Of a DNA stretch of 64,000 nucleotides, positions 7,777-63,666 are shown piece after piece (position 1 is the first letter of the stretch; each line of letters begins with the position of its first letter). Below the pieces are notes generated by a model. It was not told the origin of the DNA and did no database searches. It saw only the letters and a list, made by a program, of their open reading frames with translations. The position numbers and the translations under genes were made by a program. The DNA is from Minwuia thermotolerans (GTDB lineage Bacteria > Pseudomonadota > Alphaproteobacteria > Minwuiales > Minwuiaceae), in the NCBI RefSeq assembly GCF_002924445.1, contig NZ_PIGG01000040.1, positions 124,001 to 188,000 of the forward strand, given 5' to 3'.

Positions 7777-9309
7777 ATGACCGACCGATCCGCCGCCAGC
7801 CCCGAATCCCGCACCCTGCAGCGCTTTCACCGCGCCGAGCGCCGCCGCCGCGCCTGGGACGCCCTGCTGGACGACGCCTACGCCTTCGCCCTGCCTCATC
7901 ACGACGCCGCCGCCAGCGGCCGGGCCGGCGGGCGGCGCGACCGGGAGATCTTCGACAATACCGCGGTACAGGCGGTGCAGTGGCGGCGCTCGCGGCTGCA
8001 CGGGCAGCTCTTCCCGCCATTCCGCGAATGGATGGACTTCGAGGCGCCGGAGAGTTTCGGCTTCGGGGACGATCTGCGGCGCGGCTACGAGACCTGGCTG
8101 GACGATGTGCGCGCCCGCTTCCACGTGGCGATCGAGGCGTCGAACTTTCACATCGAGGTCGACCCGGCCATCGGCGACGCGCTGATCTCGACCGGCGCGC
8201 TGATGGTGCACGAAGGCAGCTTCGCGCGCCCGCTGCGCTTCGAGGCCATCCCGGCGCGGGAACTGGTGCCGGAGGAAGGACCCGACGGCATGCTGGCCAC
8301 GGTCTTCCGCCAGATGCGGCTGACGGCGCGACGTATCGCCGAGAAATGGCCCGACGCCGATCTGCCGCCCGACCTCGCGAAGCTCGCCGCGGAGAAGCCG
8401 GATACCGAGATCGAGCTGATCGAGGCGGTGATGGCCGATCACCCCGGCGGCCCGGCGGACTACGAGCTGTGGTGCGTCGATCAGCCGGGCGCCGACGGCG
8501 AGAACCTGCTGCTGAAGCGCGCCTACGCCGCCTCTCCGGTGATCGCCTTCCGCATGGACAAGGCGCCGGGCGAATGGATGGGGCGCGGGCCGGTGCTGAG
8601 CGTGCTGGCCGATATCAAGACCGCCAACAAGGTGGTCGAACTGATCCTGAAGAACGCCTCCATCGCGGTCACCGGCATCTGGCAGGCCGAGGACGACGGC
8701 GTGCTCAACCCCGCCAACATCCGCCTGGTGCCGGGCGCGATCATCCCCAAGGCCGTGGGCTCGGCGGGACTGACGCCGCTCGACGCGCCGGGGCGCTTCG
8801 ACGTCAGCCAGATCGTGCTGGAGCGCCTGCAGGAGACCATCCGCCGCGGCATCATGGGGCCGACCCTGCCGCCTGCGGAGGCGGGCCAGCGCACGGCCTT
8901 CGAGATCGACGTCCGCCAGCAGGAGTTCGCGGCGGTGGAACTTCCCATGTCGCTCAGGCTGCTGACCGAGCTGGACTACCCGCTGGCGCGGCGCGTGTTG
9001 GCGATCCTCTCCGGCCCGGCCATGGTCGGCTCCCCCTTCCATGTCGAACCCTTCTCGGCCGGCGGCGAGGCGGTCAGGCCGAAGCCGACCTCGCCGCTGA
9101 TCCGCCTGCAGGACATCGCCGAGGCGGCCGAGGCGCAGTCGGCCTATCTCCGCGCCGCCCAGGCCTTCCCCGACATGATCGGACAGGTGGTCGACCGCGC
9201 CGGCTATCTGCGCCACTACCTGAAGCGCGCCGGCTTTCCTGCGGCGCATCTGCAGGACGCGGCGGCGCCAGCGGCGGCCACGGCTGACATGCTGCCGTCA
9301 TCGCCCTGA
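7777..9309 (+). CDS. Podovirus-type portal (head-to-tail connector) protein
   Basis: This 510-residue protein is close in length to T7 gp8 (about 536). Portals form the dodecameric ring through which DNA enters the capsid. Recognisable family segments are the N-terminal ALLDDAYAFALPH and IFDNTAVQAVQWRRSRLHG, the middle block GRGPVLSVLADIKTANKVV (about 268-286), NASIAVTGIWQAEDDGV and LNPANIRLVPGAIIPKA (about 291-325), and the alpha-helical C-terminal QQEFAAVELPMSLRLLTELD. The ATG at 7777 starts after CGAGG; longer upstream readings have no phage-like sequence. The frame is intact and GC-rich like its neighbours. It stands alone: the next gene, 46 bases on, is a secreted phosphoesterase, and no terminase or capsid gene adjoins it. 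A gene-transfer-agent component or a remnant are the two explanations. Confidence 0.85.
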   Translation: MTDRSAASPESRTLQRFHRAERRRRAWDALLDDAYAFALPHHDAAASGRAGGRRDREIFDNTAVQAVQWRRSRLHGQLFPPFREWMDFEAPESFGFGDDLRRGYETWLDDVRARFHVAIEASNFHIEVDPAIGDALISTGALMVHEGSFARPLRFEAIPARELVPEEGPDGMLATVFRQMRLTARRIAEKWPDADLPPDLAKLAAEKPDTEIELIEAVMADHPGGPADYELWCVDQPGADGENLLLKRAYAASPVIAFRMDKAPGEWMGRGPVLSVLADIKTANKVVELILKNASIAVTGIWQAEDDGVLNPANIRLVPGAIIPKAVGSAGLTPLDAPGRFDVSQIVLERLQETIRRGIMGPTLPPAEAGQRTAFEIDVRQQEFAAVELPMSLRLLTELDYPLARRVLAILSGPAMVGSPFHVEPFSAGGEAVRPKPTSPLIRLQDIAEAAEAQSAYLRAAQAFPDMIGQVVDRAGYLRHYLKRAGFPAAHLQDAAAPAAATADMLPSSP

Positions 9310-21227: not shown

Positions 21228-21965
21228 CTATCCCACCAGCCTCTGCCAGCCATCGCGGACCTTGCGCACCACCGCGTCATGGTCCGGATGGCGGGCGTTG
21301 AGATAGGCGTCGGAGGCCTGCAGCCGCCGGAGCGCGGCCTCGTCCATGCCGGCGGCGGGCTGGTCGCGGTGACCCGGCACGCCGCGCTCGGTCAGGCGGT
21401 CGCGCAGCGCCTTCAGCAGCATCACGCCGCGGGCATCGGACGCCAGCTCCTCTGCCGCCTCCAGCAGTTCGGGCCGGTCCGCGAAGTCGCGCTGCAGCAG
21501 CGCGCCGAACCAGTGGCCGACCTCCTGGCAGACCTCGTCGCAGCGGTGGCCATAGGCCTCCTTCAACTGCGCCATCTGGGCCGTGTGGAAGGCTTCCGGG
21601 TCGCGGGCGTCGGCTTCGGCGCGGGCGAATCCCTCGACCAGTTCGCCGAAGGCTTCCTGGGAGAGACCATGCTTCTTCGCCCAGGCCATGGCCGCGGCCG
21701 CCGCCGGGTCGGCCGGATCGATGGCGACGCGGTCGGCGATATCGTCGGGCACCTTCAGCTCGTAGGTTTCGGGCGCCTTCGGCCGGCCCGAAACCTGGCG
21801 GCGCAGGTCCGCCTGGCTCTTCAGCAGGGCGGCGAGGTCGATATCGTTCGCCTCCCGGTCCCAGAACTGATCCGGCACTTCGTAGGCCATATCCCGGTAC
21901 GTGAACCGGTGCATTTTCCGGCCTGAATCGCCGCCACCGGCGTAGTCGATCATGCTGGTGTTCAT
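21228..21965 (-). CDS. Phage capsid assembly scaffolding protein (T7 gp9-like)
   Basis: This 245-residue acidic, largely helical protein has features of podovirus scaffolding proteins. After a short leader comes VPDQFWDREANDIDLAALLKS (residues 30-50, one residue type per turn), the opening typical of phage scaffolds that begin with a 'PEKFWD...LLKSY' block. Next is a PETYELKVPDD linker and then a long helical region rich in Ala/Glu (AWAKKHGLSQEAFGELVEGFA). Scaffolds direct procapsid assembly and normally sit between portal and major capsid genes. Here neither is adjacent: upstream (overlapping by four bases) is a Bbp19-like gene and downstream is an ArsC-like host gene. The frame is intact. 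Confidence 0.72.
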   Translation of the reverse strand: MNTSMIDYAGGGDSGRKMHRFTYRDMAYEVPDQFWDREANDIDLAALLKSQADLRRQVSGRPKAPETYELKVPDDIADRVAIDPADPAAAAAMAWAKKHGLSQEAFGELVEGFARAEADARDPEAFHTAQMAQLKEAYGHRCDEVCQEVGHWFGALLQRDFADRPELLEAAEELASDARGVMLLKALRDRLTERGVPGHRDQPAAGMDEAALRRLQASDAYLNARHPDHDAVVRKVRDGWQRLVG

Positions 21966-22162
21966 CTGCGTCCCCTTTCGACCATGTTGATGATTGTCCG
22001 AACGATGAAGCGCTGACCTTCCAGGTGACGCAGCCGGCGGTCCTCGATCTCGGGCCCGGCGGCGATCTCGACAGTCAGACCGCGCAGATAGGCCAGCGCC
22101 GCCTCGCCGTCCGCGCCGCGAAAACAGCGGGCGAAGATCCTATCCAGCTCAGGACCGGCCAT
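21962..22162 (-). CDS. Bbp19-like small phage protein
   Basis: This 66-residue protein resembles the Bbp19 family, named from the Bordetella podovirus BPP-1 and found next to head genes in many podoviruses and prophages. The recognisable parts are LDRIFARCFRGADGEAALAYL at the start and RHLEGQRFIVRTI followed by an arginine-rich end. Its precise role in phage is unknown. The start overlaps the end of a 37-residue membrane peptide by 14 bases and its stop overlaps the scaffold start by four, so the three are a tightly coupled unit. The assignment is by remembered family pattern and is less certain than for the portal. Confidence 0.62.
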   Translation of the reverse strand: MAGPELDRIFARCFRGADGEAALAYLRGLTVEIAAGPEIEDRRLRHLEGQRFIVRTIINMVERGRR

Positions 22163-56306: not shown

Positions 56307-58010
56307 CTATTCGGCCGCGGCCCGTTCCGGCCTCGCGCTGCGGCGGCGGAGAACCCGGCCGGGACCGGCGACGTCCCTGTAGCCCTTGCCGTCATGCACC
56401 TGCACCCCGTTGACCCAGGTGCCCTTCAGCCCCGGCGCCTCCCGCACCAGCCGCTCCCCGCCCGCGGGCAGGTCGGCCAGCTTGATGGTCTTCGAGAGCT
56501 TCAGCGCCGCCGGGTCGAAGCGGATGAAGTCGGCCGCCGCGCCGGGGCGCAGCTCGCCGCGGCCGTCCAGGCCATAGATCCGCGCCGGCTCCGAGGTCAG
56601 CTTGGCGATGGCCTGGGCCAGGGTGAACTTCTGCGCCTCGCGCACCCAGTGGCTGAGGAAATGGATGCCGAAGCCGGCATCGCAGAACAGCGTGTGATGG
56701 GCGCCGGCGTCGGAGAGGCTGACCAGGTTGCCGGGCATCGCCAGCAGTTCCGCCACGCGGTCCTCCTCGACGTTCAGCAGCTTGGCGGTGAAGACCGTCT
56801 TCAGGTCTTCCGCCAGCGCCAGGTCGAGACAGGCGTCCAGCGGATCCTTGCCCTGCCGCTGGCCCAGATCGGCCAGGGTCAGACCGACCAGGTCCGCGTT
56901 CTCCGGCTTCTGCGCGATGGTGATCTCCACCCGGTCCCAGTGACCGTTGAAGATGCGGGTGCCCGACGGCTTCGCCAGATCGTCGCGGATGCGCCGGCGT
57001 ACGGCCGGGTCGGCGAAGGCGCGCTTCAGTTCCGCGGCGTCCTCGCTGCCGGGCCAGCCGTCGATGGTCAGCATCGGGTAGGCGGCCTCCAGCGTGAAAT
57101 CCATGGACAGCGGCTGGCAGGAGCATTGCGGAAAGACCGGCCGGCCCTTCTCGCGCTCGGCGGCGCATTCGCGGGCGAGGCCGATGGCGCGCTCGGGCTG
57201 GTTGGAATAGTGCAGCAGCGGCGCATAGATCGTCGCCCCCTGCGACAGCTCGGCCAGTTCGCCCAGAAGCGGGATGGAGGTGGCGTTGCCGCAGGTCGCC
57301 ATCATGATGCCGCCGCCCCCGGCCTCGCCCAGGGTGCGGGCGAAGGCGCGGAACTCGGCGTCGTCGGCCATGCGCGACGGCACGGGCCGGTTGCCGGCGC
57401 CGAAATGGTTCTCGAAGGTGGACGAACCCATGCCCAGCGCGCCGGCCGCCAGCGCGTCGCGGAACAGCGCCTGCATTTCCGCCAGTTCCGCCTCGGTCGC
57501 GGCGCGCTCGGAGCCCGCATCGCCCATCACCGCCGTGCGCATCACCGAATGCGAGGCCAGGGCCGCGACGTTCGGGAAGGGCCGCTTGGCCTGGATCAGG
57601 TCGAGATACTCGTCGAAGCTCTCGAACGACCAGTCGACGCCCGCGTGCAGGCTTTCCAGCGACATGGCCTCCACGACGGAGAGATTGGCGAGAATCGTGT
57701 CCCGCGCCGCCGGCGGCGCCGGGGCGATGCCGAAGCCGCAATTGCCGATGACCACCGTGGTGACCCCCAGCGCCGGCGACGGCGAGGCCGTCGGGTCCCA
57801 GGTCAGCTGGGCGTCGTAGTGGGTGTGGACGTCGACGATGCCCGGGGCGATGGCGTCGCCGCCGGCGTCGATCTCCTCGGCGCCCCGGCCATCGACCTTG
57901 CCGACCGCGCCGACCACGCCGTCCCGGACCGCCAGATCGCCTTCGACCGGATCGTTGCCCAGCCCGTCGTAGATCCGCGCATTGCGGATCACCAGATCCC
58001 AGTCGCTCAC
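56307..58010 (-). CDS. N-acyl-D-amino-acid deacylase family amidohydrolase
   Basis: This 567-residue amidohydrolase has the D-aminoacylase pattern: NARIYDGLGNDPVEGDLAVRDG, the metal site IVDVHTHYDAQLTWDPT, VIGNCGFGIAP (Cys), later QCSCQPLSMDFT, and the Asp ligand in SLSDAGAHHTLFCDAGFG. The final part contains the RPGAAADFIRFDPAALKLS strand. It probably hydrolyses N-acyl-D-amino acids or a similar amide. Complete in length. It lies eight bases upstream of mscS, so the two are in one operon on the minus strand. Confidence 0.88.
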   Translation of the reverse strand: MSDWDLVIRNARIYDGLGNDPVEGDLAVRDGVVGAVGKVDGRGAEEIDAGGDAIAPGIVDVHTHYDAQLTWDPTASPSPALGVTTVVIGNCGFGIAPAPPAARDTILANLSVVEAMSLESLHAGVDWSFESFDEYLDLIQAKRPFPNVAALASHSVMRTAVMGDAGSERAATEAELAEMQALFRDALAAGALGMGSSTFENHFGAGNRPVPSRMADDAEFRAFARTLGEAGGGGIMMATCGNATSIPLLGELAELSQGATIYAPLLHYSNQPERAIGLARECAAEREKGRPVFPQCSCQPLSMDFTLEAAYPMLTIDGWPGSEDAAELKRAFADPAVRRRIRDDLAKPSGTRIFNGHWDRVEITIAQKPENADLVGLTLADLGQRQGKDPLDACLDLALAEDLKTVFTAKLLNVEEDRVAELLAMPGNLVSLSDAGAHHTLFCDAGFGIHFLSHWVREAQKFTLAQAIAKLTSEPARIYGLDGRGELRPGAAADFIRFDPAALKLSKTIKLADLPAGGERLVREAPGLKGTWVNGVQVHDGKGYRDVAGPGRVLRRRSARPERAAAE

Positions 58011-58078
58011 CGTCGCCTCCTCCCGTTTACGCCGGTGAGGAGTCTGCCACCCGCCCGGACAGGCGGCAATGGCGGGGG

Positions 58079-58495
58079 CTATTTCGCCTTGCCGCCGAAT
58101 TTCTCCACCGTGCGGAAGGCGCCGAGGCCGAGCATGCCGAGCAGCACGGTCAGCAGTTCCTCCATGGCAAGATCGGGCGGCATGGAGGCCTGCAGACCGG
58201 TGTTGAGAATCGTCCAGGCGAGCAGATCGCGGGCGACGAAGTTGTAGAACAGCGCCATCCCGCAGACCCAGCCGATGAACGGCCGCCAGCCGGCAACGAA
58301 GACGGAGCGGTGGCCGGCCTCCACCTTGTTCAGTTCCGCCTGCACCAGCGACGGCTGCATCATCAGCCGGGCCTTGATCAGGCCGGCGGCGCGCTTCTCC
58401 TCGTCGGTCTCGACGAAACGGTCGATGATGCCGGCGACGCCCTCGGCGGCGGAGAGCACCGCGCCGCCGAACAGGTTCTGCAGCAGGCCCGTCAC
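58079..58495 (-). CDS. Three-helix holin of gene-transfer/phage release type
   Basis: This 138-residue protein matches the GTA-type '3TM holin' family. A short amphipathic start (LLQNLFGGAVLSAAEGV) is followed by a charged helix, then HRSVFVAGWRPFIGWVCG with ALFYNFVARDLLAW and ELLTVLLGMLGLGAFRTVEK, i.e. two or three membrane helices. Motif RSVFVAGWRPF...G is the family hallmark. Holins open the inner membrane at the end of the lytic phase. GTG start at 58495 shares GTGA with the upstream gene stop. It ends the unit that begins with the tail fibre. No endolysin gene follows. Confidence 0.82.
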   Translation of the reverse strand: MTGLLQNLFGGAVLSAAEGVAGIIDRFVETDEEKRAAGLIKARLMMQPSLVQAELNKVEAGHRSVFVAGWRPFIGWVCGMALFYNFVARDLLAWTILNTGLQASMPPDLAMEELLTVLLGMLGLGAFRTVEKFGGKAK

Positions 58496-58848
58496 CGCGC
58501 TGCCTCCGCCGTCGCCCGGCGGCGCTCGGCCAGCAGCATCTCGTGGATTCGTTCCACCTGGACGCCGATCGCGCGGGTGCGTTCGTCCACCTGCCCGACG
58601 CCGCGGTCGAGGCGCGTCAGGCCCGTGTCCAGCCCCTCGATACGCCGCCAGATACGCTCCCGCACCTCCGCCGCGCGGACCAGTTCGTGCTCCAGCCGCT
58701 GGACCCGCCCGTCCAGCGAAGCGCCCCACCAGATGGCGGCGGCGAGGTAGCCGACCAGACCCAGGCCGCCCGCCAGCAGGGACCGCACCGGAATGGCCGC
58801 CGTTCGCGCGGATGCGGCTTCCCCGGTCATCGTCATGGCCGCCGGCAT
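58492..58848 (-). CDS. Membrane-anchored coiled-coil protein of the lysis cassette
   Basis: This 118-residue protein has one membrane helix (LLAGGLGLVGYLAAAIWWG, about 24-42) and then a long coiled coil (LDGRVQRLEHELVRAAEVRERI...RAIGVQVERIHEMLLAERRRA). That plan resembles the inner-membrane spanin (Rz-type) of phages, which works with holin and endolysin, though no outer-membrane partner is seen. The start at 58848 (TGAAATG) directly follows the stop of the previous gene with no strong ribosome site. It overlaps the holin start. Confidence 0.6.
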   Translation of the reverse strand: MPAAMTMTGEAASARTAAIPVRSLLAGGLGLVGYLAAAIWWGASLDGRVQRLEHELVRAAEVRERIWRRIEGLDTGLTRLDRGVGQVDERTRAIGVQVERIHEMLLAERRRATAEAAR

Positions 58849-58849
58849 T

Positions 58850-59161
58850 TCAGGGAAACCGCCGGTGCGGCGTCGCCGGCGCCGGATCGAGCACCCAGGG
58901 CGCAAGAGCGGCGGGCAGGATCGCGCCCGGGCGGAGGCGCAGATTGACGTGCCAGCCGGGTTGCGTCTCCGCCGGCGCGAGCTCCGTGTCGTCGGGGCCG
59001 AGAACGGGCGGCAGGCGGATCTCGCCCACCAGGTCGATCATGGCCGCGCCGGCGCGGGCGACCGGCTGCGCGGCCACGGGCGCCGGCCAGCCGGCGGCGG
59101 CGAAGGCCGCCTCCATCCCGGCATTGTCGGCGAACCTGAGATAAAGGTCGGTGCTGGTCAT
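58850..59161 (-). CDS. Phage-associated small protein of unknown function
   Basis: This 103-residue protein of a type common beside phage tail fibres begins MTSTDLYLRFADNAGMEAAF and ends with WHVNLRLRPG, LPAALAPWVLDPAPATPHRRF. Proteins ending in 'WHVNLR...ALAPxxVxPxxPxRVF' recur next to tail-fibre genes in prophages of alphaproteobacteria. Its function is unknown; probably a virion or fibre accessory. Start overlaps the tail fibre stop (ATGA). Confidence 0.6.
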   Translation of the reverse strand: MTSTDLYLRFADNAGMEAAFAAAGWPAPVAAQPVARAGAAMIDLVGEIRLPPVLGPDDTELAPAETQPGWHVNLRLRPGAILPAALAPWVLDPAPATPHRRFP

Positions 59162-61449
59162 GCGGTAATCTCCGTGAGCTGGGCGTCGGAAAGCCGGACG
59201 GGCCAGAGCGCCGCTTCCTCGAGGCCGATATTGTGGTGGGTGTCCCAGGACTGGGTCGGCTCCGCGCCGACGATCAGATGGGTGAGGCGCGCCGGATCGG
59301 GCTGTGCGGGCGTGGCCGTGGCCGGATCGCCCTCGCCGTCGACCTCGAAGACCGATCCAGCGCCGTCGACGGCCGCCGCCACGGCGACCGAAGCCCCCGC
59401 CACGCGCGCCGCACCCTCGCCCAGGGCATCGAGGCCGCCCGCGGGCGTCTCGATCACCGCGCCCGGCTTCTCGGCAGCCGCGCCGCCGGCATGGCCGTGC
59501 CGGAAGGCCAGATACTGATCGGCGCCGTCCGCGGCGTCGCCGAGGCTGAGCGGATGGGCGTTATCCCCGCCGGCGCCGTCGGGACCCAGATAGCGGTAGC
59601 GAGCCAGCAGCGTGAACTCGGCTGCCGCCACGGGATGGGGCAGCGCCACCTGCAGCGCGTCTGCGGGCCGGGTGACCTGGGCGGCCTCGGTCGGGATATA
59701 GCTTGAGGCGCGCCCGCCCGCCTCGACCTGGTAGCCGAAGAAGTCCGCGAAGCCTTCTGCCGCGGCTTCCGCCGAACCGAGGTCCTGAGCGTTCCAGGCG
59801 GGGAAGGCCCTGACGTCCAGGTAGTCCAGCGCCTGCGCACCGGGATCGGGAAGCGTCAGCCGCCCCCAGCAGCGGACCCAGCCGTCGGCCCAGTGCTCGA
59901 AGCCGTGTGCGTCCCAGGCCCCGGTCAGGTTCGTCGTCTCCGCCGTCGAGAAGGGCAGCAGCGCCGCGTCGAACAGCTTGTTCCGGGCGGGCAGCGCGTC
60001 GTCGAATACGAAGACCCGGAGGGCCGGATAGACGCCAGGGTCGGAGCGGCGCACCCAGGCGCTGACGGTCAGCGCCGAGCCCGGCTGAAAGCCGCTCAGG
60101 TCGATGAACTGGCGCCGGCTGGAGCTGACACCCGATTCGGTATCGGTGACGCGCGTGCTCTGCCCGCCGTCCGGGGCGGTGGCGCCGATGCCGGTCGTGG
60201 GCGCGCCGCTGTCGATCCACGGCGCGGCGGCGAGGTCGGCGGACTGCAGACAGAGATTGGTCGCCGCTTCCTCCTTCAGGACGTAGAGCGGCCGGCCCGA
60301 CTGCGGATCGTGCCACAGCCGCGCGGCGTCCGCGGCGACGGTCGTCAGCCGCCGGCCGGGGCCGGCGGTCGTGGCCGCGCCATCCCTTTCGCAGGTCACG
60401 AGGCCCGTCCCGTGGCCGATCGAAGGCGCCAGCACCAGCGCCGGCGGCGGCGTCGCCGGATGACGGCGCAGGAAATCAGCCCGCGCCGCCACCTGGGCGG
60501 CCTCGCCGACCGCGCCGAGTTCGGCGGCGACCTGCGCGACCGCGCCTGCCGCAATGCCGACGGCCTCGATCTCCGCGGCGAGCGGCGCCAGCGCCGCGAC
60601 AGCGGCGGCATCGACGGCGGCCGTCGCCGAGAGGTCGCGCACACGGATGGCGGCGCCGTCGGCGGGCGCAGCGGCGAAACTCAGCGTCGCACCGTCGACG
60701 GAATAGTCTTGCGGGTCGATGACGGCGCCGTCGACGGTCACGATCAGGGCCAGATGACTGACCGGCGCGGCGGCGAGGGCGAAATCGGTGCCGGTCCCGT
60801 CGCCGGCGAAGGAACTCGCGGCGGGCACGTTCTGCACCAGCGCGGCAATACCGTCCGCATCCTCCTGGGCCGACGCCGCGCTGGCCTCGGCGCTGGCGGC
60901 GGAAGCGGCCGCCGACGCCTCCAGCGCGGCCGCGTTCTCGACCTGCTGCAGGCTGGCGCTGAGGGGGCCGGCCACGGGCTCGCCGTCGCCATCGAAGGCA
61001 AGCAGGCGGTTGGCCAGCGCGGTCTTCGCCGGGGCCTCGGCCAGCGCCGGGGCGGCGTCGCGATCGGCGAGACGCAGCGTGCGGTCCAGCCGGCCGCGCA
61101 GTTCCTGCGCGATCGCGGTGAGGCGGTCCAGCTCCGTGTTCAGCACATCGGCGCGCAGCGCGCCGCCGGGCAGGAAGTCGCTCACGCGCTCGATCGCGGT
61201 GCGCCGGGCGATGACGATCTCGACCCCGGCTGCCGGCGCGACGGCGAACGTCACCGCTCCGCCGCCGCTCTCCCCCGCTCCGTCGACGGTGTAGTCCGCG
61301 TCGAGGGTCTTCACAGCGCCGTCCGCCCAGACGGCGAGATCGGCCGCCGCCAGATACGGAAAGGGCGCGGCGAAGACCGTGGCCGCGCCGTCGCCCAGAT
61401 GGGCGATCCGGGGTTCGGTGTCGTTGATCTTGACGTGTTCGTCGCTCAT
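59158..61449 (-). CDS. Podovirus-type tail fibre with lectin-like C-terminal domains
   Basis: This 763-residue fibre begins with a T7-gp17-like N-terminal adapter (residues 10-130: AHLGDGAATVFAAPFPYLAA, DADYTVDGAGESGG, RRTAIERVSDFLPGG, RADVLNTELDRLTAIAQEL). An Ala-rich coiled coil (170-205) and a second copy of the adapter-like beta module (212-275: SFAGDGTGTDFALAAAPVS, DYSVDGATLSF) follow. The C-terminal half has two carbohydrate-binding-like regions: NLCLQSADLAAAPWIDSG...YQVEAGGRASSYIPTEAA (about 390-600) and a LamG-type end (640-763). Tail fibres choose the host surface. First gene of a four-gene unit with GCCGGT/ACCGGC palindrome 29 bases upstream. Confidence 0.85.
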   Translation of the reverse strand: MSDEHVKINDTEPRIAHLGDGAATVFAAPFPYLAAADLAVWADGAVKTLDADYTVDGAGESGGGAVTFAVAPAAGVEIVIARRTAIERVSDFLPGGALRADVLNTELDRLTAIAQELRGRLDRTLRLADRDAAPALAEAPAKTALANRLLAFDGDGEPVAGPLSASLQQVENAAALEASAAASAASAEASAASAQEDADGIAALVQNVPAASSFAGDGTGTDFALAAAPVSHLALIVTVDGAVIDPQDYSVDGATLSFAAAPADGAAIRVRDLSATAAVDAAAVAALAPLAAEIEAVGIAAGAVAQVAAELGAVGEAAQVAARADFLRRHPATPPPALVLAPSIGHGTGLVTCERDGAATTAGPGRRLTTVAADAARLWHDPQSGRPLYVLKEEAATNLCLQSADLAAAPWIDSGAPTTGIGATAPDGGQSTRVTDTESGVSSSRRQFIDLSGFQPGSALTVSAWVRRSDPGVYPALRVFVFDDALPARNKLFDAALLPFSTAETTNLTGAWDAHGFEHWADGWVRCWGRLTLPDPGAQALDYLDVRAFPAWNAQDLGSAEAAAEGFADFFGYQVEAGGRASSYIPTEAAQVTRPADALQVALPHPVAAAEFTLLARYRYLGPDGAGGDNAHPLSLGDAADGADQYLAFRHGHAGGAAAEKPGAVIETPAGGLDALGEGAARVAGASVAVAAAVDGAGSVFEVDGEGDPATATPAQPDPARLTHLIVGAEPTQSWDTHHNIGLEEAALWPVRLSDAQLTEITA

Positions 61450-63468: not shown

Positions 63469-63666
63469 ATGGCGAAGATCGGCGGCGGCGGCAACACGGC
63501 CGCGCTCGAAGCGGCGACAAAACGAGAGGAAGAGGAGGCGCAGCGCCTGGAGGCCAAGAACGATGCGCGCGTGCGCAATCTCAGGGCCCGGCGGGGCGGA
63601 CGCCGCGCCCTGCTCGCCTTCACCGACACCGCCCCGACCGCGGGCCTGCAGACCACACTGGGCTAG
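63469..63666 (+). CDS. Small phage-virion-type protein (podovirus family)
   Basis: This 65-residue protein begins MAKIGGGGNTAALEAATKREEEEA, continues with an acidic/basic helix (QRLEAKNDARVRNLRARRGG) and ends RALLAF...GLQTTLG. The plan 'GGG-x-helix-RRG-R..LL..-G.Q.TLG' matches a small structural/packaging-associated protein found near portal or terminase genes of podoviruses. The recognition is by pattern and is tentative. GAGGAG lies at the right distance before the ATG. It is alone, 91 bases after the phosphoesterase. Confidence 0.5.
   Translation: MAKIGGGGNTAALEAATKREEEEAQRLEAKNDARVRNLRARRGGRRALLAFTDTAPTAGLQTTLG

Follow-up and report, generated by a model that had tools for sequence, protein, structure and literature searches.

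The fibre and lysis operon

We analysed a 64,000-nucleotide stretch of the Minwuia thermotolerans genome (the window; contig NZ_PIGG01000040.1, positions 124,001 to 188,000), in which an operon at 58079-61449 joins a phage-type tail fibre to lysis genes and probably belongs to a gene transfer agent (GTA)-like element. The contig is called C40 below, a window position being the C40 position minus 124000. The operon was confirmed as four minus-strand genes in the order fibre, p103, coiled coil and holin, with protein families assigned from Pfam and PHROGs (dN/dS, ratio of nonsynonymous to synonymous substitution rates; TM, transmembrane segment):

59158-61449, minus strand: tail fibre (ATG start, 763 aa; PF03906, phrog_1640/5939 and Rcc01080 profile match; dN/dS 0.20)
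58850-59161, minus strand: p103 (ATG start, 103 aa; phrog_18574, E 3e-8)
58492-58848, minus strand: coiled-coil protein (ATG start at 58848, 118 aa; one N-terminal TM plus coiled coil)
58079-58495, minus strand: holin of the GTA_holin_3TM family (GTG start, 138 aa; PF11351, phrog_3427; dN/dS 0.09)

The original prediction that the four genes overlap by four bases or abut was borne out: four-base overlaps join the fibre to p103 and the coiled coil to the holin, and the p103 stop codon (TGA, 58852-58850) abuts the coiled-coil start (junction TGAAATG). The codon bias of these genes resembles that of host genes, with a GC content at third codon positions of about 0.9, and the operon is flanked by host genes encoding an amidohydrolase, an MscS channel, a luciferase-like monooxygenase and a phosphoesterase. 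All four genes are kept in a second Minwuia species (G006) with dN/dS values of 0.09-0.23; the arrangement is therefore not a product of chance, and the operon is a fibre-plus-lysis unit.

Residues 18-127 of the fibre match the T7-type fibre N-terminal domain (PF03906, E 9e-15), followed by a middle region and a C-terminal domain (residues ~353-603) resembling the head spike of RcGTA (Rhodogtaviriformidae). Both receptor-like domains, this one and a weak one at 670-757, lie in the C-terminal half; the predicted pair of lectin-like ends was wrong, the N-terminus being a T7-type particle anchor. The N-terminal 320 residues are kept in all seven Minwuia species and the C-terminus differs among them, a pattern of between-species variation that would suit a role in receptor binding. 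The C-terminal family finds Rcc01080, the head-spike fibre of RcGTA, with E 3e-53 by profile and 1e-7 by single sequence, and the same profile search finds similar domains in ordinary phage tails (E ~1e-19). RcGTA head-spike and tail fibres bind the capsule polysaccharide of recipient cells (PMC10218006), and the relation to Rcc01080 supports glycan binding rather than kin recognition as such. The idea that the fibre recognises a receptor on sister cells thus gains indirect support from its C-terminus and no proof, because ordinary phage fibres carry such domains too. Structure prediction of the C-terminus was poor (mean predicted local distance difference test score, pLDDT, 41), and a fold search from that model was not relied on; the relation to Rcc01080 is drawn from sequence profiles.

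The PHROG matched by p103 is one of unknown function. The protein is 41-44% identical to proteins in the same position in other Minwuia, and the best structural match of its model (pLDDT 78) is an uncharacterised phage protein; tblastn found no match to it in phage records. It is possibly a fibre-associated or chaperone protein.

The assignment of the last gene to the three-TM holin family holds, with a PF11351 score of 52.3 bits against a curated cut-off of 24.8 and an E value of 3e-26 to PHROG holin 3427. Two hydrophobic stretches are clear; the third TM is taken from the family model. Among the seven Minwuia genomes, this holin occurs in two, the window's own (G000) and G006. The argument that the family name points to gene transfer was rejected and has no evidence value, the same family being present in ordinary phages of Roseobacter and Paracoccus. 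The T7-like roseophage CRP-125 carries a PF11351-type holin, 38% identical to that of the window, beside its terminase genes, but is an ordinary isolated phage, which shows that the family is not GTA-specific. A second PF11351 match in the M. thermotolerans genome belongs to a separate Mu-like prophage, on contig C4 (104001-143850) and the starts of contigs C15 and C37, which has an Amidase_2 endolysin of its own in addition to that holin. This stretch is identical in the three contigs and looks like an assembly artefact. The prophage is a separate element, and its Amidase_2 was not assumed to be the source of the endolysin discussed next.

No peptidoglycan hydrolase is encoded in the unit, as originally predicted. 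In the window the coiled coil is joined directly to the holin, with nothing between them; the related locus L078, from another alphaproteobacterium, has a cassette of coiled coil, SleB and holin with overlapping or almost overlapping genes and a holin 42% identical to that of the window. Searches of the M. thermotolerans genome found no match to SleB (PF07486) or phage lysozyme (PF00959), and none to GH108 (PF05838), the last a weak negative given that control genomes were equally silent. Because L078 keeps SleB between coiled coil and holin and the M. thermotolerans genome is without SleB, the missing endolysin would fit a gene that was lost or moved.

For the coiled-coil protein itself, all family hits in Pfam and PHROGs are sub-threshold (Rz-like hit, E 0.37). 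Its dN/dS of 0.23 was computed over a longer, 137-aa reading. It shares architecture and position with the protein preceding SleB and holin in L078 and with that preceding SleB in Azospirillum. Its layout of an N-terminal TM and a coiled coil is like that of an i-spanin, in keeping with the earlier suggestion of a possible spanin. The likeness is one of architecture, the Rz-like hit being sub-threshold, and no lipobox-bearing open reading frame of at least 30 aa that could encode an outer-membrane lipoprotein (Rz1-type) was found within 58001-59200.

Dispersed particle genes and their clustered kin

The original prediction was also right to link the operon to the portal and scaffold genes found in other parts of the window. 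Genes for a short-tailed particle lie at separate spots among housekeeping genes over ~71 kb of C40:

C40:122502-123962, just before the window: TerL (terminase large subunit)
7777-9309, plus strand: T7-like portal, alone among host genes (PF12236, E 1.5e-76)
21228-21965, minus strand: scaffold or capsid assembly protein (PF05396, E 4e-12)
21962-22162, minus strand: Bbp19-like protein (PF25181, E 7e-11), overlapping the scaffold gene by four bases
63469-63666, plus strand: 65-aa protein, by eye probably the small pre-portal gene of related clusters; 95% conserved in G006, dN/dS 0.09
C40:189537-193782, 1.5 kb beyond the window: major capsid protein (MCP, PF19821), p87, tail tubes A and B, and a 123-aa protein (p123)

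Fifty-seven host genes separate the phage loci (7, 12, 35, 2 and 1 between successive loci), and the GC content of the phage genes is host-like. Portal, scaffold, MCP, fibre and TerL are present as a single copy each in all seven Minwuia genomes. Locus order and spacing in the complete genome G006 are the same as on C40; in the complete genome G003, TerL, MCP and fibre lie at 1.33-1.35 Mb, the scaffold at 2.82 Mb and the portal at 2.95 Mb, a separation of as much as 1.6 Mb. When G000 is compared with G006, the 14 phage genes all fall within dN/dS 0.03-0.23 (host median 0.096, 64 genes) and, judged by these ratios, all are under purifying selection like host genes. A host-gene dN/dS comparison with G003 drew on regions that do not match and was disregarded. 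Phage propagation cannot keep so scattered a set under selection, and therefore the host lineage maintains it. Endogenisation, often at multiple loci, is on a published list of GTA attributes (PMC9662315) and is found here in the C40 loci, in a repressor on contig C14 described below and in the distances within G003.

The unit is not absent from relatives, although it is only partly shared: the fibre N-terminus and p103 occupy the same slot between the amidohydrolase and luciferase-like genes in other Minwuia, and the PF11351 holin is confined to the two species named above. In other Minwuia (L076:2260-3146) the places of coiled coil and holin at the end of the fibre operon are taken by a 228-aa protein and by a 67-aa protein with a coiled coil and a TM; the match of the 67-aa protein to XhlA is below the cut-off and was discarded. 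TerL is 65-95% conserved across the genus. Among named relatives, the MCP is closest to those of Minwuia metagenome-assembled genomes and strain IMCC3096.

In Azospirillum, Rhodospirillaceae and many other alphaproteobacteria, the kin of these genes form one ~16 kb cluster with a fixed order: a divergent S24 repressor, two small genes, a further small gene, portal, Bbp19 (between portal and scaffold), scaffold, MCP, p87, tail tubes A and B, an internal protein, a T7-type fibre, a T7-type TerL (PF22530), a TM coiled coil and SleB. Every Azospirillum species retrieved carries the cluster, and the portal was found in ~32 other alphaproteobacterial genomes besides the seven of Minwuia. The clusters that were read hold no integrase or replication genes. 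A free T7-like phage of the Autographiviridae type differs in having its own RNA polymerase and replication genes; no gene of either kind was seen among the called genes of these clusters or around the Minwuia loci, with host-flank genes profiled in part.

BCAT and/or class-I LysRS adjoin the repressor in 30 of 37 testable loci, from about a dozen families. The M. thermotolerans genome keeps BCAT and the repressor as neighbours at C14:73829-75331, without adjoining structural genes; the pair is followed by a gene named by eye from its sequence as dihydroorotate dehydrogenase, not by the cluster. This site appears to be an address vacated by the structural genes. Clusters are split elsewhere too (G048, G112 and part of Azospirillum). 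In seven Azospirillum loci (L081-L084, L087, L091 and L095) the MCP has no portal half within 10 kb; separate lineages therefore show a break at about the same point in the cluster.

Other observations on the clusters concern their content and hosts. Azospirillum loci L079, L088 and L103 have a sensor-kinase-like gene of ~780 aa between scaffold and MCP. After the repressor, L063-L073 have two conserved unknowns, p112 and p134, one of which bears a 'GFRHCF' motif; neither turned up in the Minwuia sequence that was read. The cluster is also carried by very small genomes (0.9-2 Mb, low GC; L067, which is genome G076, L073 and L074), unusual for a prophage in reduced genomes. IMG/VR lists cluster pieces (L155-L234) as viral fragments, mostly of 5-20 kb, some of them apparently from isolate genomes.

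Inheritance and relation to known systems

An MCP profile matches 96 of 387 alphaproteobacterial genomes, 63 of them at E <1e-100, after which there is a gap; 61 of these 63 core MCPs are without an internal stop. In the MCP tree Azospirillum (23 sequences), Niveispirillum (4), Minwuia and other genera each fall on a single branch, and MCP distances correlate with those of the flanking host genes (BCAT, r 0.78; LysRS, r 0.60; both p 0.0002). Mostly vertical, co-diversifying inheritance is a further attribute on the published list (PMC9662315), and it is seen here in the tree, in the flanking-gene distances and in the recurrent address.

Recognised alphaproteobacterial GTAs are of the RcGTA and Bartonella types. 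The element described here is like RcGTA in comprising vertically inherited, phage-derived particle genes at several host loci in an alphaproteobacterium, and in the fibre domain related to Rcc01080. It differs in its MCP (PF19821) and portal (PF12236), for which searches of the PDB return proteins of podovirus type but neither the capsid nor the portal of RcGTA; by capsid and portal it is outside the RcGTA family. The two also differ in distribution: orders with the T7-like cluster have been reported as lacking RcGTA-like clusters, the published survey finding these in none of 12 Azospirillales and none of 15 Rhodospirillales operational taxonomic units, and in none from Kiloniellales and related orders (PMC6821227). 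BhGTA/VSH-1 of Brachyspira (Brachygtaviriformidae) and BaGTA of Bartonella (Bartogtaviriformidae) similarly have a divided genome, with TerL outside the main locus in BhGTA (PMC9662315). Compared by description rather than by sequence, these two have other hosts, and it is the element here that has a T7-like head-tail set.

The closest phages compared, Methylophilales phage MEP301, Pelagibacter phage EXVC031P (Hodr) and Vibrio phage CKB-S2, have homologous portal, MCP and tail tubes, and MEP301 and Hodr also a homologous fibre N-terminus. Unlike the element here, they are free phages, with recombination genes in MEP301 and an integrase in CKB-S2. The window-contig MCP is 29-42% identical to those of the three phages, versus 47-67% to those of bacterial clusters from other families.

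A candidate T7-like gene transfer agent

Taken together, we consider it likely that the operon provides the receptor-binding and lysis functions of a domesticated, vertically inherited T7-like (short-tailed) particle element, most probably a GTA. This case is made by dispersal, single-copy conservation, a fixed chromosomal address and selection, not by the name of the holin family. By its anatomy and evolution the element would work like a GTA, and it has the two listed attributes described above. With somewhat less assurance, we favour the broader view that it represents a further, independently domesticated GTA family derived from a short-tailed T7-like phage, widespread in orders without RcGTA, with a LysRS/BCAT address and an S24 repressor, and dissolved yet functional in Minwuia. 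It seems to encode a bacterial particle for DNA transfer of a kind that had not been described, transfer itself being what we infer. We found no description of a T7-like GTA in these bacteria in the open-access literature; subscription papers and nearly all preprints lay outside this search, and a prior description is possible.

In the proposed mechanism, the S24 (LexA/CI-type) repressor at the ancestral address would hold the particle genes down, and on its release the dispersed loci would be expressed together. Scaffold, capsid and portal would build a small head, which TerL would fill with chromosomal DNA, since genes this scattered could not enter the head as a single phage genome. Two observations bear on another attribute of the published list, an own genome too large or too divided to be packaged whole: the Minwuia gene set is too dispersed to be packaged in one piece, and the clustered form in the kin is only ~16 kb. 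Tail tubes and fibre would complete the particle. The holin, an endolysin encoded elsewhere and the spanin-like coiled coil would then lyse the producer cell, and the glycan-binding-type fibre domain would attach the particle to kin cells. Of these steps, we infer joint expression of the loci, assembly of particles, packaging and transfer of host DNA, the role of the repressor in control and the origin of the endolysin.

Several observations weigh against the GTA reading. The element is known from its genes, from which particle, packaged DNA and transfer are predicted. No endolysin of the element was identified in the M. thermotolerans genome, and no large internal virion proteins were found. 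Neither a recognised holin nor a cognate repressor was found in the other Minwuia, both being present in two of the seven species, so that the remaining species have lost lysis and control or manage them in another way. The Minwuia TerL has no hit in the kin genomes searched and no BLAST match to the T7-type TerL of the kin, and is a terminase replacement within the scattered particle system. BCAT and LysRS are linked to the cluster, and the congruence of their distances with those of the MCP could partly reflect joint transfer. Finally, at least one MCP, that of G023, is broken by stops, and the weaker MCP relatives in some genomes may be real prophages.

Some of these points would also suit the relics of an old T7-like prophage that broke up: its genes would be dispersed and its endolysin missing, TerL, holin and repressor would vary between lineages, and a broken MCP such as that of G023 would be no surprise. 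We nevertheless regard decay as quite unlikely, given that all 14 genes are open and under host-like purifying selection, that relics would be lost independently rather than leave portal, MCP, scaffold, fibre and TerL once each in seven species, and that core MCPs across the class are nearly all without an internal stop. A domesticated particle with a role other than DNA transfer, for example competitor killing or sacrifice-linked release, would account for the linkage of lysis genes to the fibre and for a fibre whose C-terminus varies and whose N-terminus is kept, as in bacteriocin-like particles. This too is unlikely, however, since capsid, portal, scaffold and TerL, which are needed for DNA packaging and useless to a tail-only bacteriocin, are under selection. 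It is very improbable that the genes belong to a mobile prophage family that prefers to insert beside BCAT/LysRS. The recurrent address, the listing of cluster pieces as proviruses by virus callers in IMG/VR and the related MCPs in free phages of Pelagibacter and Vibrio all suit such a family, but the clusters read lack integrase and replication genes, the Minwuia genes, separated by as much as 1.6 Mb, cannot leave the chromosome as one piece, MCP distances are congruent with those of host genes, and genera form single groups in the MCP tree.

In Minwuia a particle gene set persists as isolated genes, a state that standard prophage finders would tend to overlook. The nearest experimental lead is provided by particles with ~10 kb DNA from Azospirillum lipoferum 4B and strain B510, which are considered GTAs and have so far been ascribed to other phage genes (PMC3899980). 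If the GTA reading is correct, the element would supply candidate genes for these particles; Azospirillum being culturable, the claim is directly testable. More broadly, domestication of a phage for DNA exchange would have arisen again, from another phage type, in lineages without RcGTA-like clusters.

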